A stretch of DNA of 34,248 nt, taken from Blautia sp. Lineage in GTDB: Bacteria; Bacillota; Clostridia; Lachnospirales; Lachnospiraceae. Each line of letters starts with the position of its first letter. Position 1 is the stretch's first letter. The stretch lies in NCBI GenBank assembly GCA_017475035.1, contig JAFVGK010000118.1:1-34248 (forward strand), given 5' to 3'. This document shows positions 8,265-25,579 of this stretch, piece after piece. The notes under the pieces were generated by a model that was not told the DNA's origin, did no database searches, and worked only from the letters and a program-made list of their open reading frames with translations. Position numbers and translations under genes: made by a program.

Positions 8265-8415
8265 GAACTTCGTACATGATACTTTGGCTGCGTTCGAAGC
8301 CGCCGGCGGCTGTGTTACGGAATCATCATCAGAACGGACAGAGTAAGAATTAAACATGGTTTACAGATGAGAAAGAGACATTGTTTCAACGTACAGAACT
8401 TCGTTTCGGAAGGAG
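8265..8415 (+). repeat. Structured leader repeat upstream of map
   Basis: The conserved tail is at 8375-8415: GACATTG, CAACGTACA, a short hairpin CAGAAC-TTC-GTTTCG at 8394-8408 (one pair broken), then GGAAGGAG as the ribosome binding site of map. Upstream, the segment ending AATCATCATC matches the end of the first hairpin in other copies, and a GC-rich inverted repeat GCCGCCGGCGGC lies near 8300. This copy is diverged relative to the folD and yraN copies. Confidence 0.6.
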
Positions 8416-8424
8416 AAAAGTCTG

Positions 8425-9300
8425 ATGTCAATCAGAATCGGAAGAAATGACCCTTGTTGGTGCGGGAGCGGACAGAAGTATAAGAAATGTCATGAAACCT
8501 TTGATTTAAAGCTGGAAGGACTGCGCCGGCAGGGTGTACCTCTTATTAATCACAGTCTGCTGAAATCCCCTCTGCAGGTTGAAAAGATCAAGGAAAGCTG
8601 CAGGATTAATGTTGGTATTCTGGATTATATCCAGGAACATATTCAGGCAGGTATTTCCACTGCGGAAATTGATCAGTGGGTGTATGACTACACAATCCGC
8701 CATCATGCGATTCCCGCGCCGTTGAATTACGAGGGGTTCCCAAAAAGCTGCTGCACCTCCATAGATGATGTGGTGTGCCATGGGATTCCCAAAGAAAGCG
8801 AGATTCTGAAAGACGGGGATATTATTAATGTCGATATCTCTACGATTTATCAGGGATGCTTCTCGGATTCGTCCAGGATGTTCTGCATCGGAAAAGTAAG
8901 TCCTGAAAAGGAACGGCTGGTAAAGGTCTGCAAGGAATGTGTAGAGATCGGGATCGCTGCCGTTCGTCCCTGGGAGCCCATCGGCAACATGGGGCATGCG
9001 GTCCATGAGCATGCGGCAAAAAACGGATATTCCGTTGTCAGGGATATCGGCGGACACGGTGTGGGATTTGAGTTTCATGAAGACCCATTTGTCAGCTATG
9101 TGGCGGAAGAAGGAACCGGAGTCCTCATGGTTCCCGGAATGATGTTTACAATTGAGCCGATGGTAAACATGGGAAGTGAAGATGTCTGGACAGACCAGGA
9201 TGACAACTGGACGGTGCGCACGGAGGATGGGCTTCCATCCGCGCAATGGGAAGTTACGGTCTATGTAACGGAAGACGGGTGCGAGGTCATCACATGGTAG
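8425..9300 (+). CDS. map: Type I methionine aminopeptidase with N-terminal SEC-C zinc motif
   Basis: Removes the initiator methionine from nascent proteins in the cytoplasm. The 291-residue product starts with a SEC-C motif (GRNDPCWCGSGQKYKKCH, residues 6-23; Cys11, Cys13, Cys22, His23) that should bind zinc and may help it dock at the ribosome. The pita-bread catalytic domain follows from about residue 45. Metal ligands are all visible: Asp137, Asp148, His211 (in GHGVG), Glu244 (in FTIEPMV) and Glu276 (in SAQWEVT), with His119 and His218 as the accessory histidines. GGAAGGAG ahead of the ATG fixes the start, and this site is part of the shared leader repeat. Many Firmicutes have map in the ribosomal protein cluster; this longer form sits before rplS. 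Confidence 0.95.
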   Translation: MSIRIGRNDPCWCGSGQKYKKCHETFDLKLEGLRRQGVPLINHSLLKSPLQVEKIKESCRINVGILDYIQEHIQAGISTAEIDQWVYDYTIRHHAIPAPLNYEGFPKSCCTSIDDVVCHGIPKESEILKDGDIINVDISTIYQGCFSDSSRMFCIGKVSPEKERLVKVCKECVEIGIAAVRPWEPIGNMGHAVHEHAAKNGYSVVRDIGGHGVGFEFHEDPFVSYVAEEGTGVLMVPGMMFTIEPMVNMGSEDVWTDQDDNWTVRTEDGLPSAQWEVTVYVTEDGCEVITW

Positions 9301-9317
9301 TTTCAAAAAAATATTTC

Positions 9318-9346
9318 TTGCTTTTGAATATAAGTTGTAGTATAAT
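9318..9346 (+). promoter_or_regulatory. rplS promoter
   Basis: TTGCTT at 9318-9323 and a perfect TATAAT at 9341-9346 with a 17-base spacer. Transcription would start near 9353, giving a leader of about 145 bases before rplS. Confidence 0.8.
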
Positions 9347-9355
9347 ATTTTGCGT

Positions 9356-9497
9356 TTGAATAAACGATGGTCCGCTGTTGTCGCAAAACGGTTGATCAGC
9401 CCGGAAGCAGGCTCTTTGTTTTGCCGTTTGGAGAGAAGGCCAGACTGTGCTTTCTTAAGACATTAAGAACATCCAAATCAGAAAAGGAGAGGATATC
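9356..9497 (+). promoter_or_regulatory. Long rplS leader, possible L19 autoregulatory RNA
   Basis: The leader can form exclusive pairings. GCAAAAC near 9384 can pair with GTTTTGC near 9418, while the overlapping AAACGG can pair with CCGTTT. An AGCC-loop-GGCT hairpin lies inside. L19 leaders are known in Firmicutes, but I cannot align this one to that family by eye, so the assignment is tentative. Confidence 0.4.
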
Positions 9498-9845
9498 ATG
9501 AACGACATCATCAAAAGCATCGAAGCAGAGCAGCTCAAGGCTGAGGTTCCGCAGTTCCGCGTTGGCGACACCGTGAGAGTGCATGCCCTCATCAAGGAAG
9601 GCAACCGTGAGAGGATCCAGATTTTCGAAGGCACTGTACTGAAACGTCAGGGCGGCGGCAATCGTGAGACTTTCACCGTCAGAAAAACTTCCAACGGTGT
9701 TGGCGTGGAGAAAACATGGCCGCTTCATTCCCCTCATGTCAAGGACATCGAGGTAGTGCGTCATGGTAAGGTCCGCCGCGCGAAATTATTCTACCTTAGA
9801 GATCGCGTCGGCAAGTCAGCCAAGGTCAAAGAGCGCATGAGATAA
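9498..9845 (+). CDS. rplS: 50S ribosomal protein L19
   Basis: A 115-residue ribosomal protein near the 30S/50S interface. The full family pattern is present: [20 protein letters not shown] near the N-terminus, then [40 protein letters not shown], and the basic C-terminus with [30 protein letters not shown] precedes the ATG. It has its own strong promoter and is closed off by a terminator. The usual neighbours rpsP, rimM and trmD are not present here. Confidence 0.98.
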
Positions 9846-9910
9846 AGTTTTTTATTTCATGACTGGCTTCATGTGGCCTGCGATAGAATGTTATATCCTG
9901 ATTCAGGAAG

Positions 9911-9950
9911 AGGAGGACAGCATGCTACCCACATGTGGTCCTCCTTTTTT
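9911..9950 (+). terminator. rplS terminator
   Basis: AGGAGGAC at 9911-9918 pairs with GTCCTCCT at 9938-9945, followed by a run of T residues to 9950. Confidence 0.85.
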
Positions 9951-9970
9951 CACTAGCTATGATATATGAT

Positions 9971-10044
9971 ATGATTCAGGCGGCAAAAGGTTCTGCAGAA
10001 AATGAGAGATTCAAGAATCAGGCCTTTGTCGATGCAATCATGAT
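9971..10044 (+). repeat. Intergenic inverted repeat holding TCAGGCYTTTGTCGATG motif (lepB copy)
   Basis: ATGATTCAGGCGGCAAAAGG at the left and CCTTTGTCGATGCAATCAT at about 10023-10041 form an imperfect hairpin. The right arm holds a variant (TCAGGCCTTTGTCGATG, 10018-10034) of a motif found in five other gaps of this window. It ends about 28 bases before the lepB start codon. Confidence 0.55.
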
Positions 10045-10061
10045 ATTTTGCAGAGGATAAG

Positions 10062-10646
10062 ATGAGAGATTCGATTTTAGACCGCGTAGATCTGTCAGGC
10101 GCGGTGATGAAGCTGGAGGACAGGGAAATCCGAAGCCGGATCAATTTTTTGATTGTTCTTGCAGCAACAGCGGTATTCGGTGCGCTCGTCGCGATTGCCA
10201 TGTTCCATACGGTGACGATCCAGGACAATTCCATGGAGCCGACGCTGCAGATCTCTGACACCTATTTTATTAATCAGGTAATTTACCGTGTCGGAGCCCC
10301 CAGACGGGGAGATATGATCGTTTATAAAGTAAACGGAAATGAGAACGCGGCATGGAGGGTCAGCCGGGTGATCGGGCTGCCGGGTGAGGATATTTATATC
10401 TATAATGGCAGGATTTACATTAACGGAGACATTTACGGGGAAAACGCAAGATATCCCGAGATCTCTAATCCCGGTCTGGCGGCAGATACCGTATCCTTGT
10501 CGAATGACGAGTATTTTGTTTTGGGAGATAATCGGAACAACAGTGAAGACAGCCGTTATTCCACCATCGGCAGTGTAAAAAAGGGACATATTATCGGTAA
10601 AATCTGGTTCCGGATCCTGCCCAGAAAGAATATCGGATTTGTCTGA
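10062..10646 (+). CDS. lepB: Signal peptidase I family protein with substituted catalytic lysine
   Basis: A 194-residue membrane-anchored protein of the S26 signal peptidase I family, which cleaves signal peptides outside the membrane. One membrane helix (about 28-49) follows a cytoplasmic N-terminus. Box B is present with the nucleophile Ser57 (DNSMEPTL), as are RRGDMIVYK and the box E block LGDNRNNSEDSRYSTIG. The box D segment reads WRVSRVIGLPGE, whereas the family has KRxIGLPGD with Lys as general base. Here that Lys is Ser101 (codon AGC). The protein may be a variant or inactive peptidase, or may use another residue such as Lys89. AGAGGA precedes the ATG. The site between rplS and rbgA is a common place for lepB in Firmicutes. 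Confidence 0.88.
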   Translation: MRDSILDRVDLSGAVMKLEDREIRSRINFLIVLAATAVFGALVAIAMFHTVTIQDNSMEPTLQISDTYFINQVIYRVGAPRRGDMIVYKVNGNENAAWRVSRVIGLPGEDIYIYNGRIYINGDIYGENARYPEISNPGLAADTVSLSNDEYFVLGDNRNNSEDSRYSTIGSVKKGHIIGKIWFRILPRKNIGFV

Positions 10647-10753
10647 CCGGGAGGCGTCAGAAGGTGCTCCCCCGCTGCGGGTAGGCCTGCAGTGGAATCC
10701 GCCTTTCCGGGGCCGGAATCATAGATTACAATTTTTGAAAATAAGGTGAGACA

Positions 10754-11605
10754 ATGAATATACAATGGTATCCGGGACACATGACAAAGGCGCGGCGTCA
10801 GATGCAGGAGGATATTCGCCTTGTGGATCTTGTTATCGAGCTGATCGATGCCAGAATACCGTTTTCCAGCCGAAATCCTGACATAGACCAGCTTTCTCAG
10901 GGAAAATACCGTCTGATTCTGATGAATAAGGCGGATCTGGCGGATGAAGAGCAAAACAGAAAGTGGATGACATACTTTCAGAATAAAGGCTTCAGCGTCA
11001 TTTGCCTGGATTCCCGGACCAAGGGAGAAATGAAAAGAATTTCCGGAGAGATTAAAAAGATCTGCATACAAAAAACGCTGCGCGATCAGGCGAGGGGAAT
11101 TAAAAACCGGCCGGTACGCGCTATGGTGGTCGGTATTCCGAATGTGGGGAAATCGACGTTTATCAACAGCTTTGCGGGCAGGGCTGCGGCAAAAACCGGT
11201 GACCGTCCCGGCGTCACGAAGGGAAAGCAATGGATCCGGCTGAACAAGGATGTGGAGCTTTTGGATACCCCGGGTATTCTGTGGCCGAAATTTGACGACG
11301 AAGAGGTTGGCACCAGGCTGGCCCTGATCGGATCTGTGAATGATGAAATTCTTAACAGGGAAGAGCTGGCTCTTCAGATGATTGCCTTTCTTCTCTCAGA
11401 GTATCCCCGGGCGCTTCGAGCCCGTTATGAAGACATCGTAGGCCCGGAGCCTCTGGCGGTATATGAACAGATCGCAAGAAAGCGCGGATGTCTGCGCAAG
11501 GGAGAAGAGCTGGATCTGGAAAAAGCCGCAAGATTGATTCTGGATGATTTCCGTCAGGGACGCTTTGGCAGGATTACGCTGGAGGAGGCTCCTGAACCGG
11601 ACTGA
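10754..11605 (+). CDS. rbgA: Ribosome biogenesis GTPase RbgA (YlqF)
   Basis: Cytoplasmic GTPase required for late assembly of the 50S subunit. The 283-residue protein has the circularly permuted GTPase order typical of the family: G4 NKAD at 58-61, then G1 GIPNVGKST at 127-135, G2 in GVTKG near 153-157, and G3 DTPG at 171-174. The N-terminal block IQWYPGHMTKAR is the RbgA signature. The C-terminal 100 residues form the RNA-binding tail. AAGGTGAG precedes the ATG. It is followed 76 bases later by rnhB, the same order as in many Firmicutes, so co-transcription is likely. Confidence 0.97.
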   Translation: MNIQWYPGHMTKARRQMQEDIRLVDLVIELIDARIPFSSRNPDIDQLSQGKYRLILMNKADLADEEQNRKWMTYFQNKGFSVICLDSRTKGEMKRISGEIKKICIQKTLRDQARGIKNRPVRAMVVGIPNVGKSTFINSFAGRAAAKTGDRPGVTKGKQWIRLNKDVELLDTPGILWPKFDDEEVGTRLALIGSVNDEILNREELALQMIAFLLSEYPRALRARYEDIVGPEPLAVYEQIARKRGCLRKGEELDLEKAARLILDDFRQGRFGRITLEEAPEPD

Positions 11606-11681
11606 GAATCGGTCTGTCAGGAACCTGGCTGAAATGGTTTTTTCTTGCCCGGAAACATGGAAATCACGAACAGGAAGAACA

Positions 11682-12452
11682 ATGAAAACGATTAAACAGA
11701 TACAACAGGAGTTTGCAGCGGCTTCACCGGAATCACGCAAGGAACTGGCTGCGCAATATCGGGATGATACAAGAACCGGTGTTCTCAGGCTGATAGAAAA
11801 ATATCAAAAAGAGGAAGAAGCGAAAGCCAAAGAGCAAAGACGCCTGGAAAATATGAGGGTCTTTGAAAAAGAATATGCCGGGATGGGTTGGATCTGCGGA
11901 ATTGACGAAGCAGGCCGGGGGCCGTTGGCCGGGCCGGTCGTCGCGGCAGCGGTGATTCTGCCTGAGGATTGCCTGATCCTCCATCTGGATGATTCCAAAA
12001 AGCTGACGCCAAAGCGCAGGGATGAGCTGTTTGACGTTATTAAAGAAAAGGCGCTGGGATTCGGCATCGGTCAGGCCAGTCATACCCGTATTGATGAGAT
12101 CAATATCCTGCAGGCTACGTATGAAGCAATGCGTATGGCCGTGGCACAGCTGCCTCTGAAGCCGGCTGTTTCCTTGAATGACGCCGTCACGATTCCGGGT
12201 CTGGATCTTTTCCAGGTACCGATTATAAAAGGCGATCAGAAGAGTGTTTCTATTGCGGCTGCGAGTATTCTCGCAAAGGTTTCCAGGGATCGCATGATGG
12301 AGGAATATGACCGGCTTTATCCCGGTTATGGTTTTGCCGTACATAAAGGCTATGGAACGACGGAGCACATGGCAGCCATACAAAGGCTGGGACCCTGCCC
12401 GATCCACAGGCGGAGTTTTTTAAAATTTTTACCCGGGCAGGAGGAAAACTGA
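11682..12452 (+). CDS. rnhB: Ribonuclease HII
   Basis: Cleaves the RNA strand of RNA-DNA hybrids and removes single ribonucleotides from DNA. The 256-residue product has an N-terminal helical extension (1-65, charged, as in Bacillus RnhB) and the type 2 RNase H core. Acidic catalytic residues are Asp75 and Glu76 in GIDEAGRGPLAGP, Asp167 in SLNDA and Asp203 in SRDRM. The ATG at 11682, with AGGAAG upstream, is preferred over a longer frame opening inside rbgA. The stop codon overlaps the first base pairs of a structured leader repeat that precedes yraN. Confidence 0.95.
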   Translation: MKTIKQIQQEFAAASPESRKELAAQYRDDTRTGVLRLIEKYQKEEEAKAKEQRRLENMRVFEKEYAGMGWICGIDEAGRGPLAGPVVAAAVILPEDCLILHLDDSKKLTPKRRDELFDVIKEKALGFGIGQASHTRIDEINILQATYEAMRMAVAQLPLKPAVSLNDAVTIPGLDLFQVPIIKGDQKSVSIAAASILAKVSRDRMMEEYDRLYPGYGFAVHKGYGTTEHMAAIQRLGPCPIHRRSFLKFLPGQEEN

Positions 12453-12540
12453 TCTTGTCTTCGGCAGCTTTTCTGCCGCAGCAGCAGAATCGTCGCCTGT
12501 AGACATTGCGTCAACGTACAAAACTGCGTTTTGGGAGGAG
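12451..12540 (+). repeat. Structured leader repeat upstream of yraN
   Basis: Hairpin I runs 12451-12490: outer GATCTTGT with GCAGAATC, inner CGGCAG-loop-CTGCCG. The linker GTCGCC...ACATTGCGTCAACGTA follows. Hairpin II is CAAAAC-TGC-GTTTTG at 12518-12532, and GGGAGGAGG (12532-12540) is the ribosome binding site. With the folD copy it is one of the two most complete copies. Confidence 0.75.
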
Positions 12541-12561
12541 GAAAGGCAGACGTCTGATCAT

Positions 12562-12915
12562 CTGAACCGACGGCAGCTTGGCAGCTTATATGAAGAAGAA
12601 GCCGCCAGGTACCTGTCTGCACAGGGAATGCGTATCCTGTGCCGCAATTATCGATGTCATTTCGGAGAAATCGACCTGATTGCAAAGGATGGAGAAACGA
12701 TTGTATTTGTTGAAGTAAAATATCGGCGTTCACCGGCAAGCGGAAGTCCTTTAGGAGCTGTAGGACTTCAGAAACAGCTCAGGATCAGTCGCTGCGCCGT
12801 TTTTTTTCTTACCGCAAAGTATCACAGGACAGATCTTCCGTGCCGCTTTGACGTGATCGGATTTGAAGGAGAATTGATTCATCATATTAAGGATGCTTTT
12901 TCATATAGACTGTAA
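12562..12915 (+). CDS. yraN: YraN family protein, apparent non-ATG start
   Basis: A small protein of the UPF0102 family with a Holliday-junction-resolvase-like endonuclease fold. Its role is not well established, and it usually lies beside rnhB as here. The conserved core is intact: FGEIDLIAKDGETIVFVEVK and, near the end, FDVIGFEGE. The conserved N-terminal helix NRRQLGSLYEEEAARYL is encoded upstream of the first ATG (12628), but no ATG, GTG or well-placed TTG opens it. I place the start at CTG 12562, which gives 117 residues and the usual family N-terminus. ACG at 12550 fits the spacing to GGGAGGAGG better, so the exact start is open. Starting at 12628 would delete a conserved helix. Confidence 0.8.
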   Translation: MNRRQLGSLYEEEAARYLSAQGMRILCRNYRCHFGEIDLIAKDGETIVFVEVKYRRSPASGSPLGAVGLQKQLRISRCAVFFLTAKYHRTDLPCRFDVIGFEGELIHHIKDAFSYRL

Positions 12916-12933
12916 AGATCCTGAAAACTCATG

Positions 12934-12958
12934 CAAAAAACCGCGTTTTGGGAGGAGG
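12934..12958 (+). repeat. Structured leader repeat, short copy ahead of prs
   Basis: Only hairpin II and the ribosome binding site are recognisable: CAAAA-loop-TTTTG within 12934-12950, then GGGAGGAGG. The position relative to the gene is as in the other copies. Hairpin I is missing; the yraN coding end occupies that space. Confidence 0.55.
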
Positions 12959-12960
12959 AG

Positions 12961-14157
12961 ATGACATTTATGCCAAACAATGACCCGATGGAACGTTCTG
13001 TTCCGATTGCACCGATTCGTATTGCGGCACTGGCCGGATGCAGGGAACTGGCTGAAGAAGTTGATAAAAAACTGGTCAAGCTTCGCAGGGAATCTCTCGT
13101 GGAACGAAAGGGTTCCATGCCTATGCCAAAAGGGTATGTGGAAAAGAGCTATCTCGTGGATTGCGAATGTCCCCGGTTTGGCACGGGAGAGGGAAGGGGA
13201 TATATCAATGAGTCTGTTCGAGGAACAGATCTGTATCTGATGGTTGATGTGACAAACTACAGTCTGACATATCAGGTATGCGATCATGAGAATCATATGT
13301 CCCCTGACAATCATTTCCAGGACTTAAAGCGCATTATTTCCGCTGCGAATGGAAAAGCCCATCGGATAAATGTTATCATGCCGTTCCTGTATGAAGGGCG
13401 GCAGCATCGCAGAACGAAACGGGAATCCCTGGATTGTGCGCTCGCTTTGGAAGAGCTTTCCAGAATGGGTGTCGGAAATATTATTACATTTGACGCGCAT
13501 GATCCCAGAGTGCAGAACTCCATTCCGTTGAATGGTTTCGATAATTTTTATCCGACCTATCAGTTCCTGAAGGCACTGGTGCGCAGTGTTTCTGATTTCC
13601 ACCTGGACAATGACCATCTGATGATTATCAGTCCGGATGAGGGGGCAATGTCTCGGGCGGTCTATTTTTCCAATATTCTTGGCGTGGATATGGGAATGTT
13701 TTATAAACGGCGGGATTATTCGACTGTAGTAAACGGAAAGAATCCGATTGTCGCTCATGAGTTTCTGGGAGACAGCGTTACTGGCAAGGATGTTGTCATC
13801 ATAGATGACATGATTTCTTCCGGTGAGAGTATGCTTGATGTGGCAAGACAGATCAAGGAACGGGGAGCGTCACGCGTTTTTATCTGTTGTACCTATGGCC
13901 TGTTTACTGAGGGTATGGATAAATTCGATGAGTATTATAAGAAAGGCCTGATTGATAAGGTAATCACTACCAACCTGAACTATCGGATCCCGGAGCTGCT
14001 GGAACGTCCTTATTACGTGGAGGCCAATATGAGCCGGTATCTGGCAAATATCATTGACCTGATCAATCATGATGAATCTGTAGATAAAGTGCGTTCCAGC
14101 AACGAAAAGATCATAGAGCTGAAAAAAAGGATCAGCCTGGGAGCTGCGCAAAAATAA
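12961..14157 (+). CDS. prs: Ribose-phosphate pyrophosphokinase, long divergent form
   Basis: Makes PRPP from ribose 5-phosphate and ATP for nucleotide, His and Trp synthesis. The product is about 398 residues, longer than the usual 310-320, with about 80 extra N-terminal residues and an insertion near 60-90. The active-site parts are visible: PFLYEGRQHRRTKRESLDC (141-159) and FDAHDPRVQ (177-185) for ATP and metal, YKRRDY near 248-253 for the flexible loop, and the PRPP-binding block VVIIDDMISSGES (278-290). The start is ATG 12961 or 12970; both lie behind GGGAGGAGG. An upstream ATG at 12931 precedes the ribosome binding site and is rejected. Confidence 0.9.
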   Translation: MTFMPNNDPMERSVPIAPIRIAALAGCRELAEEVDKKLVKLRRESLVERKGSMPMPKGYVEKSYLVDCECPRFGTGEGRGYINESVRGTDLYLMVDVTNYSLTYQVCDHENHMSPDNHFQDLKRIISAANGKAHRINVIMPFLYEGRQHRRTKRESLDCALALEELSRMGVGNIITFDAHDPRVQNSIPLNGFDNFYPTYQFLKALVRSVSDFHLDNDHLMIISPDEGAMSRAVYFSNILGVDMGMFYKRRDYSTVVNGKNPIVAHEFLGDSVTGKDVVIIDDMISSGESMLDVARQIKERGASRVFICCTYGLFTEGMDKFDEYYKKGLIDKVITTNLNYRIPELLERPYYVEANMSRYLANIIDLINHDESVDKVRSSNEKIIELKKRISLGAAQK

Positions 14158-14199
14158 CCTGATTTCGCAGGCGTTCCGTACAAATACGCTCCGCAGGAA

Positions 14200-15096
14200 T
14201 CATTGCGTATCACGAAGCCCCAGAAAGGCGGCAAGATTGCCTCTTCGGCCTTGTGAAGCACGATGAGAAAACAATACCTCCGGATTGCAGCAGGTACAGA
14301 TATTGGGCAGGAATATGTGGTCCTTTTGCAGGCCGGAAAGAAGAAAAAGCTGTCTGTTAGCTTCCCAGAGGTCAAGCTGGTATTTTCCTTTCCTTTTTCC
14401 GGTTTTCACAAAGGAGTCCATCCGGTCTGAGGGATAACTGCCGCGGAAAGCTTCGATAACCTCTTCGCTGACCTCATAACAATCCCGGCAGATCGAAGGA
14501 CCGATGCCGGCATAGAGTTCTGCCGGATCAGAGCCAAAGTGTTCCCGCATGCATTCGATCGTTACACGCCCCATCTGCGCAGCGGTTCCCTTCCATCCGG
14601 AATGTGATAACCCGATCGCATGGTGCACAGGATCGATCAGAAACAAGGGAACGCAGTCGGCGAAGAAAGCGGTTAGGATAACCCCGGGGGAGTCCGTAAT
14701 CAGGCCGTCCACATCATGAAAAGCCTGGGGACGTGCAAGACCGTTCCCACGGTCCGCGGCAGACACTTTTTTTACGTTTGTGGTGTGAGTCTGTACGGTA
14801 CAGACGACCTGGTCCGTCTGAAAACCTATGGCCTCAGCGACGCGCTGATAATTCGTCCGTACGTTCTCAGGCTTGTCACCTCTCGAAAAGCTTAGATTCA
14901 TGGATGAAAGGTCGCCTTCACTTACGCCGCCCAATCGGGTAGAAAAACCGTGGATGATTTCTTCTATTTCGCGAAAGGCTGGGAAATACAGATACGGACA
15001 CGTACCTTTTGTTTCCGGGAGCATTCCCCGGACACCGGTATTGTGATATCTGATTTCAGGAACTGAAAAAGGGGAAGAACTTCTTGATTGATTCAT
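14200..15096 (-). CDS. pgeF: YfiH/PgeF family purine nucleoside phosphorylase (laccase-domain protein)
   Basis: A 298-residue protein of the Cu-oxidase_4/LACC1 family. Members act on purine nucleosides and have been linked to peptidoglycan editing. Recognisable blocks are HGFSTRLGGVSEGDLSSMNL, the His-containing VQTHTTNV, FFADCVPLFLIDP, HSGWKGTAAQMG, AGIGPSICRDCYEVSEEV and the C-terminal CTCCNPEVLFSHRASQGRRG. The zinc-binding His/Cys/His set of the family is therefore retained. AAAGGAAAAATC precedes the ATG. It lies tail to tail with prs (42-base gap, no clear terminator) and diverges from the DUF512 gene. Confidence 0.92.
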   Translation of the reverse strand: MNQSRSSSPFSVPEIRYHNTGVRGMLPETKGTCPYLYFPAFREIEEIIHGFSTRLGGVSEGDLSSMNLSFSRGDKPENVRTNYQRVAEAIGFQTDQVVCTVQTHTTNVKKVSAADRGNGLARPQAFHDVDGLITDSPGVILTAFFADCVPLFLIDPVHHAIGLSHSGWKGTAAQMGRVTIECMREHFGSDPAELYAGIGPSICRDCYEVSEEVIEAFRGSYPSDRMDSFVKTGKRKGKYQLDLWEANRQLFLLSGLQKDHIFLPNICTCCNPEVLFSHRASQGRRGNLAAFLGLRDTQ

Positions 15097-15126
15097 GATT
15101 TTTCCTTTCTTTTTCTATGAAGCATC

Positions 15127-15174
15127 AATGACCGCATCGATAAAAGCCTGATTCTGCAAATCGATGAAATCATT
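15127..15174 (-). repeat. Hairpin holding TCAGGCTTTTATCGATG motif (pgeF copy)
   Basis: AATGA...CATCGAT (15127-15141) pairs with ATCGATG...TCATT (15160-15174). On the minus strand the loop side reads TCAGGCTTTTATCGATG, one base from the consensus, and points toward pgeF. A TATAAT for the minus strand overlaps its upstream edge (15172-15177). Confidence 0.55.
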
Positions 15175-15351
15175 ATAACGTATTTTATACACCCGTGACT
15201 ACAATGTTTCATAAATCTCAGTGATTTTCCGGATAATAAAGATAGAGTCAGAGCATGATTTTTGAAGTAAAGACAGGTAAATCGGGACAGTTATTTCTGA
15301 CTCAATCCTCAGGCTGCGTCAACAAAAGAAGCAAGGGGTAAACAAAAGCTG

Positions 15352-18052: not shown

Positions 18053-18088
18053 AGTACAAAGGATTTTACCGAGAAAGGAAATGGGATT

Positions 18089-18778: not shown

Positions 18779-19776
18779 GTCAGATCAGTATCATGGGTTC
18801 CGGGAGCTGGGGAATGGCGCTGGCGATCCTTCTGAACAACAATGGCCATAGCGTTACCTTATGGTCTGCGCTTGCAGATGAGGTGGTCATGCTTGACACA
18901 ACCCGGGAAAGCCCGACCAAATTGCCGGGCGTCAGGCTTCCGGAAACGATTCATGTAACCGGTGACGCAAAAGAGGCTCTTACGGAAAAAGATGTAGTAG
19001 TGATGGCGGTTCCGTCCGTTTTTACCAGAAGCACATCCAGGCAGATCGCGCCTTTGGTCAGGGACGGCCAGATTATCGTCGATGTCGCAAAGGGCGTTGA
19101 AGAAACTACTTTGATGACCTTAAGCCAGATCATCAGACAGGAAATACCCAGCGCCGAGGTATGTGTCCTTTCCGGCCCCAGCCATGCTGAGGAGGTCAGC
19201 AGAGGGATTCCCACGACCTGCGTGATCAGCGCAAGAGAAAAAAAGACTGCGGAATATCTGCAGGAAATTTTCATGAGTCCCGTATTTCGTGTTTATACTA
19301 CCCCGGATATGCTTGGCGTTGAGCTGGGCGGATCCTTGAAAAATGTTATCGCTCTGGCTGCGGGAACCGCAGACGGGCTCGGATATGGGGATAATACGAA
19401 AGCAGCCTTAATCACCCGCGGTATTTCCGAAATTGCAAGGCTTGGTACCAGGATGGGGGCAAGGCAGGAAACCTTCTATGGATTATCCGGAATGGGAGAT
19501 CTGATCGTCACTTGCGCGAGCGTTCACAGCCGGAACCGCAAAGCAGGTTATCTGATCGGTCAGGGCAAAACCATGCAGCAGGCCATGGACGAAGTACAGA
19601 TGGTCGTGGAAGGCGTTTATTCCGCAAAAGCGGCAAAACAGCTGTCCGAAAAATATGAAGTGGAAATGCCTATCGTATCGGAGGTCAATAAGGTGCTTTT
19701 TGAAGATAAACCCGCCGCTGACGCGGTCAGGGATCTCATGATCCGTGACAGAAAAACGGAGGGAAAATGGGATTAA
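18775..19776 (+). CDS. gpsA: Glycerol-3-phosphate dehydrogenase (NAD(P)+)
   Basis: Reduces dihydroxyacetone phosphate to sn-glycerol 3-phosphate, the substrate of PlsY encoded just upstream. The 333-residue product has the nucleotide-binding GSGSWG (8-13), Lys106 in the VDVAKGVEE block, SGPSHAEEV (133-141) and the catalytic Lys189 in GGSLKN. AGGAGCG lies inside the end of plsY and serves as its ribosome binding site. The gene is complete and of normal length. Confidence 0.97.
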   Translation: MSQISIMGSGSWGMALAILLNNNGHSVTLWSALADEVVMLDTTRESPTKLPGVRLPETIHVTGDAKEALTEKDVVVMAVPSVFTRSTSRQIAPLVRDGQIIVDVAKGVEETTLMTLSQIIRQEIPSAEVCVLSGPSHAEEVSRGIPTTCVISAREKKTAEYLQEIFMSPVFRVYTTPDMLGVELGGSLKNVIALAAGTADGLGYGDNTKAALITRGISEIARLGTRMGARQETFYGLSGMGDLIVTCASVHSRNRKAGYLIGQGKTMQQAMDEVQMVVEGVYSAKAAKQLSEKYEVEMPIVSEVNKVLFEDKPAADAVRDLMIRDRKTEGKWD

Positions 19777-19865
19777 CTACGGCGGCTGACAGCAACGCGG
19801 CCTGGATGGATCCGGACGCGCCGGATGTAAAGATTATTTATGCACAGATCCTAAGCAGGAGATAG
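19767..19865 (+). CDS. Possible 32-residue small protein overlapping the end of gpsA
   Basis: An ATG at 19767 lies five bases after CGGAGGG and opens a 32-codon frame to TAG at 19863-19865, overlapping gpsA by ten bases. The peptide (MGLTTAADSNAAW... ending ILSRR) matches nothing I know. It could be a small gene, a remnant of a longer downstream gene, or chance. Part of its sequence (about 19832-19854) resembles the end of the terminal repeat of this window, which argues for a remnant. Confidence 0.2.
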   Translation: MGLTTAADSNAAWMDPDAPDVKIIYAQILSRR

Positions 19866-19879
19866 GAAAAAGGAAAAGA

Positions 19880-19936
19880 GAGGGGACAGAGTCTTGTGTC
19901 CAGGCTTTCGGCCGAAACATGGGACTCTGTCCCCTC
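19880..19936. repeat. REP-like palindrome, possible terminator for the minus strand
   Basis: GAGGGGACAGAGTC (19880-19893) pairs perfectly with GACTCTGTCCCCTC (19923-19936). The loop contains a 12-base palindrome TTTCGGCCGAAA at 19906-19917. On the minus strand a CT-rich, T-rich tract follows, so it could end transcription from the aldo/keto reductase gene. The GGGGACAGAGTC ends look like a repetitive extragenic palindrome. Confidence 0.6.
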
Positions 19937-20021
19937 CTCCCATAACGAAGTTTTGTACGCTGACTCAATGATCCGGATGACTATTTTGTTGCCTGTCGCG
20001 CTTCGCACGCCAGGACAAAAT
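19931..20021 (-). repeat. Structured leader repeat, orphan copy
   Basis: Read on the minus strand: hairpin I has outer ATTTTGT/ACAAAAT, CCTG/CAGG and an inner GCGT-GCGAA-GCGC (20021-19983). The linker GTCATCCGG...CATTGAGTCAGCGTA follows. Hairpin II is CAAAAC-TTC-GTTATG (19955-19941, one mismatch), then GGGAGGAGG. No gene follows on this strand; the Shine-Dalgarno part runs straight into the 19880-19936 palindrome. Confidence 0.7.
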
Positions 20022-20103
20022 ATGTCTCCTCTCATAATGCAGTTTGTTGTCTCAATACTTTCGGATGACGATTTTTCCGACCCGGGCTTTGACATTGCCG
20101 TTC

Positions 20104-20946
20104 TCAGCGTGTCAGGTCCGCATAGGTAATGACATCCTGCAGATCCTCAGGAATAGAAGCAGTATGATAATCTTCGTTTAGTTTGTCCAGCAAAGCCATG
20201 TCTTCCGGATCTATGGAAAAATCGAAGATCCGCGCGTTTGTTCTGATATGTTCCTTGTTTTTCGACTTTGGAATGACGGCAATCCCTTTTTGAACCGCCC
20301 AGCGCAGACCGATCTGAGCCGGGGTCTTCGCGTATTTTATCCCCATTACGCATAAAACGTCGTGATCAAGATATGCGCCCCTCCCTAATGGCGCATAGGC
20401 CTGAACGGCGATCCCGTTTGACTGACAAAACTCGATGAGGTGTCGGGGATAGCATAGAGGATGTACCTCCATCTGGTTGACTGCAGGATAAATACCGAAG
20501 GACTCTTTTATTTCCTTTAATTGATGGCTGTTAAAGTTGCTTACTCCGATGGACCTTACATAGCCTTTTTCCTGAAGCTTCATCATTGCTTCCCAAGTAT
20601 TCAGATAACAGCCGGGTACGGGCCAATGGATCAGGAAAAGATCGAGATAACTCAGCCGCAATCTTTCTAAAGTCCGTTCTAAAGCGCCTTCCACATCGCC
20701 GAGACGCTGCGCGTTATTCCAGACTTTACTTGTAATGAATAACTTGCCGCGCGGGATCTTACAGCGAGAGACAGCTCTTCCGATATATTCTTCATTTTTA
20801 TAGACAGGAGCAGTATCAAACAGCCTGTATCCGGAGGAAACAGCTGTCTCTACGGCTGCCGGCGCATCCTGTTCTCCGATCCGATACCCCCCCAATCCAA
20901 GGAGAGGCATTTCCATACTGTTATTAAGAATAATTGTCTGATTCAA
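20104..20946 (-). CDS. Aldo/keto reductase, TTG start
   Basis: A 280-residue NADPH-dependent oxidoreductase of the AKR superfamily with a TIM-barrel fold; the substrate cannot be told from sequence. The catalytic tetrad is visible: Asp44 and Tyr49 (LFDTAPVYKNEEYIG), Lys74 (FITSKVWN) and His107 (LIHWPVPG). VSNFN and IPKSKNKEHIRTN are further family blocks. The start is taken as TTG at 20946, because AAGGAGG lies six bases upstream and the protein then begins at the usual place. The ATG 16 codons earlier has no ribosome binding site. It diverges from fchA and ends before the palindrome at 19880-19936. Confidence 0.92.
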   Translation of the reverse strand: MNQTIILNNSMEMPLLGLGGYRIGEQDAPAAVETAVSSGYRLFDTAPVYKNEEYIGRAVSRCKIPRGKLFITSKVWNNAQRLGDVEGALERTLERLRLSYLDLFLIHWPVPGCYLNTWEAMMKLQEKGYVRSIGVSNFNSHQLKEIKESFGIYPAVNQMEVHPLCYPRHLIEFCQSNGIAVQAYAPLGRGAYLDHDVLCVMGIKYAKTPAQIGLRWAVQKGIAVIPKSKNKEHIRTNARIFDFSIDPEDMALLDKLNEDYHTASIPEDLQDVITYADLTR

Positions 20947-21131
20947 TGAAAACCTCCTTGAAACATCAGGTTTGTTCGTAAATAGAAAAACCAACCATAC
21001 GGATTGATTCTAGCATATAAATATGAATATCCCTCTTCGTTTGTTTTAAATTTATATAAAATAATAGTATCAAGAACTGTCCGGGGTATAGGATTTATTC
21101 AATCAGAAAGAGAATAACTGATAAAAAAAGC

Positions 21132-21161
21132 TTGCTTTCTTATGCTTGCGGAATCTATACT
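21132..21161 (+). promoter_or_regulatory. fchA promoter
   Basis: TTGCTT at 21132-21137, an 18-base spacer, and TATACT at 21156-21161. Transcription would start near 21168, just before hairpin II of the shared leader, which explains why hairpin I is absent in this copy. Confidence 0.5.
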
Positions 21162-21193
21162 GACAATGTACAACACTTCGTTTTGGGAGGAGG
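21161..21193 (+). repeat. Structured leader repeat, short copy ahead of fchA
   Basis: TGACAATGTA precedes hairpin II CAACAC-TTC-GTTTTG (21171-21185, five of six pairs) and GGGAGGAGG. It keeps the linker end, the hairpin and the ribosome binding site but not hairpin I. Confidence 0.6.
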
Positions 21194-21203
21194 AAAGGAA
21201 AAA

Positions 21204-21842
21204 ATGCCTTTTTCAGATTATACATGTGAAGAATTTGTGGAGGTTCTGGCAAGCAGGGAGCCTGTTCCCGGAGGCGGCGGGGCTTCAGCCCTCGTGGGCG
21301 CTCTCGGGATTGCCCTCGGCAATATGGTAGGGAGCCTGACTCTGGGCAAAAAAAAATATCAGGCGGTGGAAGAGGAAATGCTGCAGCTGAAAGAAAAATG
21401 TAAGCGGCTGCAGCAGGATTTTCTATATCTGATGGAACGGGATGCCGAAGTTTTTGAACCTCTTGCGAAAGCATATAAAATGCCGAAAGAAACCAGGGAG
21501 CAGCAGGAAGAAAAAGCCCGGGTGATGGAAGATGTTTTAATGGATGCCTGTATGGTGCCATTGGAGATTATGGAGAAGTGCTGTGAAGCGATTGAGCTGA
21601 TTGCAGAATTCGCCGCAAAGGGTTCTTCTCTTGCTGTCAGCGACGCCGGTGCCGCAGCCGCATTCTGCAGGGCTGCTCTTATGGGAGCCAGTCTGAATGT
21701 ATTTATTAACACAAAAGCAATGATAGACCGCGAACAGGCCGCATTCCTGAACCGCCGGGCGGACGAAATGCTGGAAGAATACATAAAAACCGCAGATGAA
21801 ATCTTTGAAAGCGTACAGGCAAGGCTTCGAGGGGAGCTGTGA
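21204..21842 (+). CDS. fchA: Cyclodeaminase/cyclohydrolase family protein, likely methenyl-THF cyclohydrolase
   Basis: A 212-residue, largely helical cytoplasmic protein of the formiminotransferase-cyclodeaminase C-terminal family, the size of stand-alone FchA of clostridia and acetogens. FchA converts 5,10-methenyl-THF to 10-formyl-THF. The family signature PVPGGGGASALVGALGIAL lies at about 21-39, followed by MVGSLTLGKKKY and, later, AVSDAGAAAAFCRAALMGA. The ATG at 21204 follows GGGAGGAGGAAAGG. No formiminotransferase or histidine-degradation gene is nearby, whereas folD follows, so a cyclohydrolase role fits better than cyclodeaminase. The substrate choice is inference. Confidence 0.88.
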   Translation: MPFSDYTCEEFVEVLASREPVPGGGGASALVGALGIALGNMVGSLTLGKKKYQAVEEEMLQLKEKCKRLQQDFLYLMERDAEVFEPLAKAYKMPKETREQQEEKARVMEDVLMDACMVPLEIMEKCCEAIELIAEFAAKGSSLAVSDAGAAAAFCRAALMGASLNVFINTKAMIDREQAAFLNRRADEMLEEYIKTADEIFESVQARLRGEL

Positions 21843-21882
21843 CATTCTCCGCTGTGTGGTCCCGGGATAAAAGATAAGGGCT

Positions 21883-21972
21883 GATTTTGTCTTCGGCAGC
21901 TCAACAGCCGAAGCAGCAAAATCGTCATCCGAAGAGATTGAGTCAACGAACAGAACTTCGTTCTGAGAGGAG
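21883..21972 (+). repeat. Structured leader repeat upstream of folD
   Basis: Hairpin I at 21883-21923: outer GATTTTGT/GCAAAATC, inner CTTCGGC/GCCGAAG. The linker GTCATCCGAAGAG-ATTGAGTCAACGA follows. Hairpin II is CAGAAC-TTC-GTTCTG (21951-21965), with a compensatory A-to-G and T-to-C change relative to CAAAAC/GTTTTG of other copies. GAGAGGAGG follows as the ribosome binding site of folD. Confidence 0.78.
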
Positions 21973-21978
21973 GCAGCG

Positions 21979-22848
21979 ATGGCTGAACTGATGCTGGGAA
22001 AGGAAGTAAACGCTTCTTTAAATGAAAAAATAAAAGCGAATGTTGAAGCTTTAAAACAGAAGGGTGTGGTGCCTGGACTGGGTATTGTCCGCGTCGGAGA
22101 GAATCCCGGGGATCTTTCCTATGAAAAAGGCGCAGTCAGAAAATGCGAAACCCTTGGAATATCCTGCAGACGATTTCTTTTACCCAAGGATGTGTCTGAA
22201 AAAGAGCTTCTGGCTGTGATCGAAATGTTGAACAATGATGACCTCATCCATGGCGTTCTCTTATTTCGTCCCCTGCCAAAGCATTTACGTTCGTCGGTGA
22301 TTGAAAATGCCCTGGCGCCTGAGAAGGATGTCGACTGCATGACGGAACTATCCATGGCAGGAGTTTTTACCGGCAAGAAGATCGGATTTCCGCCCTGTAC
22401 CCCACAAGGCTGTATGGAGATCCTGGATTATTACGGAGTGGATTGTACCGGAAAAAAAGCGGTTGTGATCGGACGCAGCCTTGTCGTGGGCAGACCTGCC
22501 GCAATGATGCTGATGGATAAAAATGCTACGGTAACGATCTGCCATTCCCGCACCGTCGATCTGCCTTCCGTTACCCGCGAAGCTGATATTCTGATTGTCG
22601 CGGCAGGGCAGGCAGGAATGATCGGAGCGGATCATGTAAGAAAAGGACAGGTTGTGATTGATGTGGGAATCAATGTCACCGGGGAAGGCATGCTCTGCGG
22701 GGATGTCGACTATCAGGCGGTGGAACCGATTGTCTCGGCTATTACGCCTGTGCCGGGCGGAGCGGGAAGTGTAACGACTACGGTTCTGGCAGGGCATGTT
22801 GTGGAAGCAGCCATGCGGCGGGAAGAATCTGCCCTTAAAGAAAAATAA
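21979..22848 (+). CDS. folD: FolD-family methylene-THF dehydrogenase, cyclohydrolase lysine missing
   Basis: A 289-residue FolD family protein acting on methylene-THF with NAD(P). The Rossmann half is clear, with the VVIGRSLVVGRPAAMML nucleotide-binding block (162-178) and PVPGGAGSVTT near the C-terminus. The N-terminal active site is unusual. Canonical FolD has Tyr-x3-Lys, the Lys being needed for cyclohydrolase activity. Here Tyr48 is followed four residues later by Ala52 (GENPGDLSYEKGAVRKC). Asp119 in KDVD is kept, but the usual DGFHPxNxG region reads DCMTELSMAG. This suggests dehydrogenase activity only, with FchA, encoded 136 bases upstream, doing the hydrolysis. AGAGGAGG precedes the ATG. 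Confidence 0.93.
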   Translation: MAELMLGKEVNASLNEKIKANVEALKQKGVVPGLGIVRVGENPGDLSYEKGAVRKCETLGISCRRFLLPKDVSEKELLAVIEMLNNDDLIHGVLLFRPLPKHLRSSVIENALAPEKDVDCMTELSMAGVFTGKKIGFPPCTPQGCMEILDYYGVDCTGKKAVVIGRSLVVGRPAAMMLMDKNATVTICHSRTVDLPSVTREADILIVAAGQAGMIGADHVRKGQVVIDVGINVTGEGMLCGDVDYQAVEPIVSAITPVPGGAGSVTTTVLAGHVVEAAMRREESALKEK

Positions 22849-22860
22849 AAAAACTCAGGC

Positions 22861-22912
22861 AAAAAAGGTCATGCAAAAAATGAGCTTTCTCATTCCATGC
22901 ATGGCCTTTTTT
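22861..22912. terminator. Bidirectional terminator between folD and metH
   Basis: AAAAAAGGTCATGCA (22861-22875) pairs with TGCATGGCCTTTTTT (22898-22912), and ATGAG-CTTT-CTCAT forms an inner stem. A-tract and T-tract flanks allow use from both converging genes. Confidence 0.9.
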
Positions 22913-22950
22913 ATTCTCGCAGAGCGCGAGGCTTTGCCTTCCTGAATTTT

Positions 22951-25395
22951 TTATTGCAAAAAAACCTGATCCGCATAACGGACCGTGGCCATAGCGTCCT
23001 GCGCATAGCAGTCCGCCCCGATTCGATCAGCATACTCCCTGGTCAGAACGGCTCCGCCCACGACGGTTTTCGTATCCGGTTTTTTCTCACGCAGCAGGCG
23101 GATCGTTTCTTCCATACTGGGAACCGTTGTGGTCATCAGAGCAGAAAGACCTACCAGCCGGATGTTCTTTTCGATGGCAGTTTCCAGAATGGTTTCCGGC
23201 GCTACATCCTTTCCCAGATCTATGACTTCATAACCATAATTCTCCAACATCACTTTTACGATATTTTTCCCGATATCATGGATATCTCCTTTTACGGTGG
23301 CAAGAATCAACGTTCCTTTCTTTTCCTGAGGGGTGTTTGCAAGTCTCTCTTTAACGATCTCAAAAGCACTTCTTGCAGCCTGCGCGCTCATTAATAACTG
23401 AGGAAGGAAAAGCGTTCCCTTTTCAAAGCCTTTCCCGACCTGGTCAAGGGCCGGTACAATCTGTTTGTTGATTACCTCCAGCGGGTCAGAGACAGACAAA
23501 GCTTTTGCGGCTTCCGTGCCGGCTGCTGATTCGAGGCCTTTTAAAATAGCCGAAAAGAGAGGAGATGGACCGATCCCTGTATCTGGGGAAAGGGCTCCGC
23601 TCTCATGATCCTTCGTTTTCTGCATGGGAGAATCCGCCTGTATTGCGCCGGCTGCCTGCAGCAAAGGCTGATAATCCTGATAGGCACTGATGTAGCCGGT
23701 GAAATTCGGATCCTTATCCGCAAGAGCCAGATATGCACGGAAAGACTGCATCATGGCTTCATTCAAAGGATTGATGATCGCCAGGGAAAGCCCATGGGAA
23801 AGCGCCATGGTGAAAAAGCCCGCGTTCAGAATACTCCTTGCAGGAAGTCCAAAGGAAATATTGGATACGCCCAGAATCGTATGCACACCGGTTTCCGTGC
23901 GCAGGCGCCGTATCGTGTCTAATGTAACGAGAGCGCCTTTCGGGTCTGAGGAAACGGTCATGGCAAGACCGTCTATTACGATATCTTTTTTTGAAATTCC
24001 ATAAGACGCGGCAGTATCGATGATTTTCTTTGCCACGGCAAGACGTCCGTCCGCGGTTTCAGGGATTCCGCTTTCATCCAGAGGAAGTCCGACAATGACG
24101 CCGCCATATTTTTTTACCAGAGGGAATATGGCTTCCATGTTTTCCTTTTTCCCGTTGACAGAATTGATCAGCGCTTTTCCGTTGTATATTCTAAGAGCCT
24201 TCTCCATCGCAGCGGCGTCGGAAGTATCGATCTGGAGAGGCAGAGGAGTCACGGACTGGAGAAGCTGGACGGCTTCCGTCAGAAGGGAAGCTTCATCGAC
24301 CCCCGGCATACCAAGGTTTACGTCCAGAATATGCGCTCCGGCTTCTTCCTGTCGCAGGCCTTCCTGCAGCAGATAATCCATGTCATGGTTGCGGAGGGCG
24401 GACTGGAATTTTTTCTTCCCGGTAGGATTAATGCGTTCGCCGATCAAAAAAGGTCCGTTTTCTACGTCCAGACATTGGCAGAAAGAGGAAATACAGGTAC
24501 TGGTTTTTGGTATCGGCGGTTGGAACGGAAGTCTTCTGACTTTTTGTATGGTTTTTGAGATATATTCCGGGGTAGTTCCGCAGCAGCCGCCGCAGGCGTG
24601 TATTCCCAGGGAAGCGATTTGTTCCATAATGGAAGAGAATTCCTCTGCATCCACATTATAGGTTGTTTTTCCATCCTGAACAACAGGAAGCCCGGCATTT
24701 GGATTTACAATAACGGGAACGGAGGCTGCTGCCAAAAGTCTTTTTGCGATAGGAATCATCTGGGAAGGCCCTAAGGAACAGTTGACTCCGAGAGCGTCTG
24801 CGCCGAGTCCCTCCAGCATGGCCGCCATCGATTCCGGCGTGCCGCCGGTAAGCATTTTCCCGTTTTCGTCAAAAACCATGGTCAGAAATACAGGCAGGCC
24901 GCAGTTTTCCTTTGCGGCAATGACGGCTGCTTTTGCCTCATAGCTGTCATTCATGGTTTCGATCAGAACAAGATCAGCGCCTGCCCGGGCGCCGATCCGG
25001 ACGGTATCTGCGAAAAGCTTTACCGCATCTTCAAAAGCAAGATCCCCCATCGGTTTCAATAGTCTGCCCGAAGGCCCGATATCCAGAGCGATAAAGGCAT
25101 CCGGCCTGCCGGCACGTATCCTGGCCTCTTTGGCAAGACAGACGGCAGCGTTGACGATTTCTTCGAGTTGGTCGGGATACTTTAACCGGTTTGCGCCAAA
25201 GGTATTTGTGTTGAATACATCACAGCCGGCGTCCAGATATCCTTGATAGAGACGCAGGATTTCATCCGGATGAGTGAGATTCCAGGTTTCAGGCAATTCT
25301 CCCGGAAGGAGTCCCATTGCCTGCAGAATCGTACCGGTCCCGCCGTCGAAAAATACCCATTCTTTCCCGATTTTGTCTAAGATATTGTGTGACAT
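22951..25395 (-). CDS. metH: Cobalamin-dependent methionine synthase lacking the reactivation domain
   Basis: Transfers a methyl group from methyl-THF to homocysteine through cobalamin. The 814-residue protein has a homocysteine-binding barrel at about 8-295 (GVNCSLG and GGCCGTTP supply the zinc-binding cysteines), a pterin-binding barrel at about 315-575 (LIGERINPTGKKKF, DVNLGMPG, QIDTSD), a helical cap, and a B12-binding domain with Asp704-x-His706-xx-Gly709 (GDIHDIGKN). Full-length MetH (about 1200 residues) also has a C-terminal SAM-binding activation domain. Here that domain is the separate gene upstream at 25580-26308. AGGAGG precedes the ATG. The gene converges on folD, which feeds the same folate pool. 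Confidence 0.95.
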   Translation of the reverse strand: MSHNILDKIGKEWVFFDGGTGTILQAMGLLPGELPETWNLTHPDEILRLYQGYLDAGCDVFNTNTFGANRLKYPDQLEEIVNAAVCLAKEARIRAGRPDAFIALDIGPSGRLLKPMGDLAFEDAVKLFADTVRIGARAGADLVLIETMNDSYEAKAAVIAAKENCGLPVFLTMVFDENGKMLTGGTPESMAAMLEGLGADALGVNCSLGPSQMIPIAKRLLAAASVPVIVNPNAGLPVVQDGKTTYNVDAEEFSSIMEQIASLGIHACGGCCGTTPEYISKTIQKVRRLPFQPPIPKTSTCISSFCQCLDVENGPFLIGERINPTGKKKFQSALRNHDMDYLLQEGLRQEEAGAHILDVNLGMPGVDEASLLTEAVQLLQSVTPLPLQIDTSDAAAMEKALRIYNGKALINSVNGKKENMEAIFPLVKKYGGVIVGLPLDESGIPETADGRLAVAKKIIDTAASYGISKKDIVIDGLAMTVSSDPKGALVTLDTIRRLRTETGVHTILGVSNISFGLPARSILNAGFFTMALSHGLSLAIINPLNEAMMQSFRAYLALADKDPNFTGYISAYQDYQPLLQAAGAIQADSPMQKTKDHESGALSPDTGIGPSPLFSAILKGLESAAGTEAAKALSVSDPLEVINKQIVPALDQVGKGFEKGTLFLPQLLMSAQAARSAFEIVKERLANTPQEKKGTLILATVKGDIHDIGKNIVKVMLENYGYEVIDLGKDVAPETILETAIEKNIRLVGLSALMTTTVPSMEETIRLLREKKPDTKTVVGGAVLTREYADRIGADCYAQDAMATVRYADQVFLQ

Positions 25396-25403
25396 GGCAT
25401 TTT

Positions 25404-25493
25404 CTCCTCCTCTTACAATGATAATTGTAAGCCGACATAGCGTCTTGAAGACAATTTTGTTTCCTGTCGCGGTTCATGCTCCAGGACAGAATC
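25404..25493 (-). repeat. Structured leader repeat upstream of metH, hairpin II replaced
   Basis: On the minus strand, hairpin I (25493-25451) has GATTCTGT with ACAAAATT outside and TCCTG/CAGGA inside. After GTCTTCAAGACGCTATGTC comes a different hairpin II, CTTACAAT-TATC-ATTGTAAG (25431-25412), abutting GAGGAGGAG. The shape of the leader is kept while the hairpin II sequence is unrelated to the other copies. Confidence 0.65.
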
Positions 25494-25510
25494 AGTCTCC
25501 ATTCATATTT

Positions 25511-25546: not shown

Positions 25547-25579
25547 TTCTAAGAAGTATCCGCCAGGCATCGGAAACGG

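Follow-up and report, generated by a model that had tools for sequence, protein, structure and literature searches.

The 34,248-nt contig JAFVGK010000118.1 of a Blautia sp. assembly (GCA_017475035.1), contig C91 of our numbering and hereafter the window, raises the question why one structured element with its own Shine-Dalgarno (SD) sequence recurs directly ahead of several genes. The original prediction had offered two answers, a selected RNA structure that controls translation or a repeat family that spreads ribosome binding sites. The second is favoured here: the repeat family is real and abundant, and it probably consists of small (~97 nt) non-autonomous mobile repeats, similar to repetitive extragenic palindromic (REP) sequences and IS200/IS605 derivatives, which insert at SDs and restore them. 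Insertion at an SD or a GGAG is the statement with the best support.

Copies in the window

Copies were called by two iterated nhmmer profiles (E<1e-3, non-overlapping), which represent types A and B of the element, so that other subfamilies could be missed. Positions 8000-26000 of the window were also scanned, with filters off, with a covariance model (R1) built from 67 copies, including those ahead of yraN and metH and excluding the other copies of the window. The following features were obtained.

21877-21972, plus strand: full type A copy ahead of folD (ATG at 21979), R1 E 9e-25
21883-21889 and 21917-21923, plus strand: outer stem of hairpin I, folD copy
21924-21931, plus strand: GTCATCCG box, folD copy
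21951-21965, plus strand: hairpin II, folD copy
21966-21973, plus strand: SD AGAGGAGG, folD copy
12445-12540, plus strand: full type A copy ahead of yraN, R1 E 2e-22
25407-25500, minus strand: full copy of the diverged type D ahead of metH, R1 25407-25499, E 3e-12
19934-20028, minus strand: full copy, no gene start found, R1 E 3e-24
20026-20086, minus strand: partial copy running head to tail into 19934-20028, nhmmer; R1 20029-20105, E 0.011
8376-8415, plus strand: 3' part of a copy ahead of map (ATG at 8425), nhmmer; R1 8320-8415, E 1e-4
21162-21193, plus strand: 3' end of a copy ahead of fchA, nhmmer; R1 21110-21192, E 2e-4
12931-12958, plus strand: possible 3' end ahead of prs, unconfirmed, R1 12869-12957, E 0.09

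Thus, with R1 and nhmmer, the copies predicted at map, yraN, fchA, folD and metH and the one with no gene were recovered, in case of map by nhmmer only in its 3' part 8376-8415. The copy predicted at prs stays unconfirmed: this candidate, which reads AAAAC-CGC-GTTTT followed by GGGAGGAGG, is weaker than two unexplained R1 matches of the same scan, namely 17148-17236 on the plus strand (E 0.0088) and 21847-21929 on the minus strand (E 0.0055), the latter being the antisense of the folD palindrome. Searched with up to three mismatches, a 24-nt core of the element gives 5 matches in the window versus 0.00 expected by chance. Hairpin II of the metH copy reads CTTACAAT-TATC-ATTGTAAG, as in type D. 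In the copy at 19934-20028, the 3' half resembles type A and the 5' half types C/D.

The gene names map, yraN, prs, fchA, folD and metH fit NCBIfam models, with FchA, FolD and MetH not reaching the curated cut-offs of the displayed models. ATG, GTG and TTG are absent from the end of the element ahead of yraN to 12628, yet the YraN match starts further upstream (window 12541-12630); an ACG at 12550 occupies the position where the start would be expected. The MetH product (22954-25395, minus strand; 814 aa) covers positions 42-856 of a 1182-position model, the C-terminal part being missing.

Abundance in the source genome

The source assembly comprises 5.08 Mb in 200 contigs and is 93.6% complete with a contamination estimate of 5.0%; the closest species-named relatives of its FolD in the named genome set belong to Blautia species (~76-78% identical). 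Allowing up to three mismatches, the 24-nt core occurs 177 times in this genome, and a reversed control gives 0 matches. Copies were inspected in a sample of 60 stretches (1.18 Mb) plus the window, in total 1,210,517 bases, the copy density of which is biased since the sampled contigs were chosen among those with core matches. It holds 179 copies (121 full, 21 left-only, 32 right-only, and 5 other) with a mean column identity of 68%, and 132 of them lie wholly outside called open reading frames (ORFs). As the sample contains 88 of the 177 core matches, approximately 360 copies are expected genome-wide by scaling.

In agreement with the prediction that the element is not a known riboswitch, Rfam 15 gave no match to the leader at the gathering threshold or at E<=1, two weak matches lying elsewhere or below threshold. 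No description of the repeat was found in the literature searched, which is no proof of absence. An exact 25-nt pattern has 0 matches in 84,980 named genomes, a set that may omit the source genome and those near to it. Neither the folD copy nor a copy of the related genome G014 has a match in the phages of INPHARED or the plasmids of PLSDB, and two exact patterns matched 0 viral contigs.

Boundaries, tandem copies and empty sites

In the 109 copies without a preceding copy, the bases before the body of the element read GGAG at 79/85/94/88%; A precedes this GGAG at 58/50/50%, and the composition is flatter further out. Head-to-tail copies share a GGAG. Beyond it, the left and right flanks of 64 copies are uncorrelated at -5 and -6 (p 1.0 and 0.66), with a weak, marginal signal at -7 (p 0.047). 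The terminal inverted repeats and target duplication of a classical miniature inverted-repeat transposable element were not found.

Orthologous loci of adk, folD, glyA, and gltX (29 same-genus loci per gene) were searched with nhmmer at E 0.1, and the element was found in 0 of 116. Of the 115 loci displayed, one folD locus being too short, most carry a plain SD at the usual distance. In case of glyA, AACAAAGGAG[element]AAGAGGAGGAATAATATCGT-ATG of the source genome corresponds to ATAACAGGAGGATGAATC-ATG in a relative, and in case of adk, AAAGGAG[element]GAGAGGAGTATATT-ATG corresponds to AACGGAGGGTATATCTT-ATG. By eye, the folD locus of G014 (L165) contains a possible distant remnant of the element. 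Just ahead of folD of G021 (L157), a direct repeat of GCGGCACAGGAGGAA occurs twice, possibly an SD-containing duplication of another kind.

With its high copy number, the SD at its right end and these element-free orthologous loci, the element behaves as the repeat family spreading ribosome binding sites that had been suggested. A copy would start directly after (AAA)GGAG and end with a hairpin plus GGAG(GAG), so that a gene struck at its SD retains an SD at the usual distance, and later copies would re-enter the same GGAG, giving rise to head-to-tail arrays.

Position relative to genes

A start codon (ATG, GTG or TTG of an ORF of at least 50 codons) lies 3-14 nt past the terminal GGAG in 96 of 153 right-ended copies (63%). 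The same holds for 14.2% of 20,000 random positions, for 710 of 2,902 GGAGG sites (24.5%, element copies included) and for 205 of 550 noncoding AGGAG sites outside elements (37%). With a wider limit, 101 of the 153 right ends are followed by a start and 22 run into a next copy (2 belong to both groups), leaving 32 with neither; ORFs were called simply, without a gene finder, so that true genes may follow part of the copies for which no start was called.

Besides those of the window, element-led genes, named by NCBIfam models, are adk, glyA, gltX, purE, ung, hslO, argC, cbiD and those of acetolactate synthase and thymidylate synthase; an RtcB-like ligase, a DltB-like protein, an Opp-type ATPase and an ABC permease score below the curated cut-offs. 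Due to the fact that these genes are unrelated, a link to folate one-carbon metabolism is not supported and a folate regulon is unlikely, as is, together with the missing Rfam match, a ligand-binding riboswitch; both were set aside. Many unrelated genes seem, as judged from the sequence, to start translation from a mobile element.

Anatomy and conservation of base pairing

Type A copies follow the layout GGAGAC-TGATTTTG-TCTTCGGCAG...CTGCCGAAG-CAGCAAAATC-GTCATCCG-AAGACATTGAGTCAACGTA-CAAAACTTCGTTTTG-GGAGGAG, and types B, C, and D carry different stem sequences. The right end is a hairpin touching GGAGGAG. Hairpin I has at its foot a conserved GTCATCC box with complementarity to the GGAGAC of the left boundary, and the opposite strand accordingly reads GGATGAC - palindrome - GTCTCC. 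Hairpins I and II of the predicted two-hairpin form are present. When 25 representatives were folded, GGAGAC paired with GTC-A-TCC as a basal helix in many of them, and the linker formed a small hairpin of its own in some. This suggests that the element has more than two hairpins, the additional parts being the basal helix (GGAGNC/GNCATCC) and the hairpin of the linker.

A stem score of at least 5 (G-U counting half) for a hairpin II ending no more than 4 nt from the SD is reached by 20 of 28 hand-chosen representatives versus 11% of 700 other GAGGAG sites; 5 representatives score 3.5-4 and 3 are without a stem. Hairpin II occurs with 12 distinct inner arm pairs, all of them pairing.

The prediction that pairing is kept despite base changes agrees with the compensatory changes between subfamilies. 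In an alignment of 67 copies (A1, 22 pairs), 86.4% of the cells are paired versus 77.8% after shuffling, 124 versus 52 cells show double changes, and the covariation score amounts to 0.263 versus 0.125; none of 500 shuffles reaches any of the three values. Two further counts do not stand out from the controls, namely pairs with a double change (10 versus 9.8) and further pair types (35 versus 31.4, with 47 of 500 shuffles as high). The signal lies between subfamilies. Individual copies frequently have broken pairs (19% of hairpin II cells are unpaired), as in a decaying repeat.

Alternative explanations

It is unlikely that the element is a family of structured RNA leaders for translational control that spread as a repeat through its usefulness. 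In such a leader, the 5' arm of hairpin I would have two possible partners, its own 3' arm and the linker (e.g., GTCTTCGG with CCGAAGAC), and the TCATCC box could pair with the SD. Its site just ahead of start codons, its orientation, the pairing retained between subfamilies and the alternative pairing of 5' arm and linker, which is seen by eye in several subfamilies, would fit this explanation. Against it stand, besides the unrelated downstream genes and the lack of an Rfam family, the 116 orthologous loci without the element and the 32 right-ended copies with neither a gene start nor a tandem copy, some of which are full. Furthermore, the stems ahead of genes are no better kept than elsewhere. 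Among 150 aligned copies, with small numbers and an imperfect alignment, the paired cells of gene-linked (n=103) and other copies (n=43) amount to 77.5% versus 79.4% in hairpin I and to 76.9% versus 75.2% in hairpin II, and the terminal AGGAG is kept in 80 of 103 versus 26 of 43. This looks like selection on the 3' SD of copies followed by a gene, and not on their stems. The empty loci and equal stems speak against the originally considered RNA structure selected to control these genes.

Likewise unlikely is an element that inserts at any GGAG, the link to genes arising from loss of copies inside genes and from noncoding GGAG being often an SD. The 132 copies fully outside ORFs and the noncoding AGGAG sites preceding a start are what such an element would leave, but a start follows the right ends more often than those sites, and the left flank is richer in A than that of 427 ordinary SDs, which have A at 42/44/36% in the corresponding positions.

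An assembly or binning artefact, for which the 200 contigs, the contamination estimate and the possibility that the repeat breaks contigs could be adduced, is highly improbable, since the copies differ from each other, lie inside contigs beside ordinary genes and have diverged relatives in seven other genomes (see below).

Putative mode of movement

Returning to mobile repeats that insert at SDs, the copy number, the boundaries, the element-free orthologous sites with a plain SD, the GGAG shared in tandem and the pairing retained across subfamilies are observed, and we infer mobility itself and a preference for SDs over any noncoding GGAG. The element would move as single-stranded DNA, mobilised in trans by a Y1 (HUH) transposase; single-strand movement is suggested by the opposite strand, whose GGATGAC-palindrome-GTCTCC resembles the ends of IS200/IS605, with their guide, hairpin and cleavage site, as well as the motif-palindrome order of REPs. 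As a tentative extension, the element may be self-guided: GTCATCC might read the SD by pairing, the element insert single-stranded and re-create an SD behind its own hairpin, box and boundary co-evolve across species, and on the order of 200 genes (the 96 of the sample, scaled) be translated from it.

Several observations weigh against a mobile repeat of this kind. The copies are old and diverged, no recent insertion being seen among them, and no polymorphic insertion site was seen. No intact Y1 transposase was found in the source genome as assembled, which shows only a 49-residue Y1 match at a contig edge. RAYT-sized Y1 genes occur in G010, G063, G032, G086, G002, and G027 of the related genomes; those of the first four (L434, L435, L436, and L438, respectively) are open frames of 217-277 aa, larger than the usual IS200 TnpA of the genus, the designation RAYT-sized being our assumption from their size. 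No R1 match (E<0.1) adjoins these four, although R1 could miss diverged families. An autonomous copy assembled from separated halves was sought by combining partial copies (15 left, 32 right) that lie on the same strand no more than 5 kb apart, and no gene-enclosing pair was obtained. Guide-like pairing was found at one end only, and IS200/IS605 guides serve both ends. Within the source genome, covariation of the basal helix does not exceed that of shuffles (85/90/83% versus 85/89/83%). Finally, since a noncoding AGGAG is an SD in 37% of the cases anyway, the preference for SDs over noncoding GGAG is modest. As a candidate mobiliser, an IS200-type fragment on contig C146 was rejected: the 900 bases read contain no element, and R1 finds none at the locus.

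Comparison with known repeats

REPs, which together with their TnpA_REP/RAYT transposases constitute REPtrons, likewise form lineage-specific families with many intergenic copies, and one of their strands has a conserved motif immediately 5' to the palindrome (CGGATG(A/C)C in the present family); the ends of IS200/IS605 consist of a guide sequence, a palindrome and a cleavage site recognised by the guide (PMC8266576). The high copy number and mostly intergenic location by which REPs are recognised are found here as well. In contrast to REPs, the motif is GGATGAC/GGATGCC instead of GTAG, the unit of ~97 nt has a second hairpin and an SD, copies stand in direct tandem and not in inverted pairs, and TnpA_REP was not found in the source genome.

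A second comparison is with non-autonomous, PATE-like derivatives of IS200/IS605. The repeat shares with them the lack of inverted ends (GGAGAC... and ...GGAGGAG) and, according to the flank comparison of 64 copies, of a target duplication beyond the recognised site, as well as a fixed orientation to a short target, hairpins near both ends and a target-complementary box at a hairpin foot. It differs in that no intact tnpA-bearing relative was found, the guide-like pairing is restricted to one end and the target reads as an SD.

The pneumococcal BOX, RUP, and SPRITE repeats are, according to PMC3049150, similarly small, interspersed and structured, likely to affect co-transcribed genes, and the result of an old proliferation with slow current insertion. 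BOX and RUP differ from the Blautia family by their inverted ends and target duplications. Moreover, BOX, RUP, and SPRITE are all enriched between convergent genes and tend to sit away from gene starts, whereas the Blautia copies lie at gene starts and carry an SD. Among small interspersed repeats that are probably mobile, the special feature of this family is the ribosome-binding site. If the proposed insertion is true, it would show how a mobile element can colonise hundreds of expressed genes without killing them, by handing back a usable ribosome-binding site, and would provide a natural experiment on the effect of 5' leader structure on translation. The compact repeat also lends itself as a substrate for tests of whether single-strand transposases in Clostridia recognise their targets in a guide-like manner.

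Diverged families in related genomes

With 68 candidates scored per genome, R1 matches were obtained in 4 of 61 genomes, namely the source (at least 68), G032 (11), G018 (1), and G014 (1, E 8e-4). A looser pattern (GNCATCCG, then GAGGAG 26-50 nt on) was searched in 64 same-genus genomes together with a backward control. It exceeds the control in the source (125 versus 2), G073 (35 versus 2), G085 (15 versus 0), G032 (14 versus 2), and G086 (13 versus 0); some matches are coding, and by eye ~23 of 35 in G073, 6 of 15 in G085, and 9 of 13 in G086 are elements. The control is also exceeded in G031 (21 versus 7), G002 (18 versus 6), and G076 (15 versus 6), where, except for two of G002, the matches listed look coding. 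Altogether, species-specific families with the same order of parts occur in G032, G018, G014, G002, G073, G085, and G086. A start codon lies 2-17 nt past GAGGAG in 35 of 39 copies of other species, a count that is not independent as the pattern requires an SD.

Between species, GGAGAC/GTCATCC changes to GGAGCC/GGCATCC with pairing kept. In a script tally of the basal helix in rows of other species, GAC/GTC occurs 22 and GCC/GGC 7 times and 36 of 40 rows pair fully. Overlapping loci account for 2 duplicate rows among the 40, and inspection by eye shows that the script misplaced at least three left triplets (L381, L394, and L397).

A stricter three-part pattern in 397 genomes of the family gave 67 matches in the source versus 0 in the control and 0-5 elsewhere; any match was found in 71 of the 397 genomes, and most of those listed look coding. 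Recognisable GGAGCC...GGCATCC copies of other genera occur in G327 (2), G222 (1), and G255 (1).

G327, contig C105, 6-102: GGAGCC...GGCATCC copy
G327, contig C113, 20044-20140: GGAGCC...GGCATCC copy
G222, contig C34, 8912-9009: GGAGCC...GGCATCC copy
G255, contig C27, 11825-11920: GGAGCC...GGCATCC copy

They are nearly identical in sequence to the copies of G014 and G002, which may point to horizontal transfer across genera.

Other repeats of the window

A second interspersed repeat around ATCAGGCTTTTGTCGATGCAATCAT occurs in the window at 10017-10041 (plus strand), 25511-25538 (minus strand), 26569-26596, and 29227-29246, and with up to three mismatches 47 times in the 1.21 Mb sample. At metH and glyA, it adjoins the element on the upstream side. 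The contig ends 1-142 and 34089-34230 are mutual inverted copies of 142 nt with 99% complementarity.

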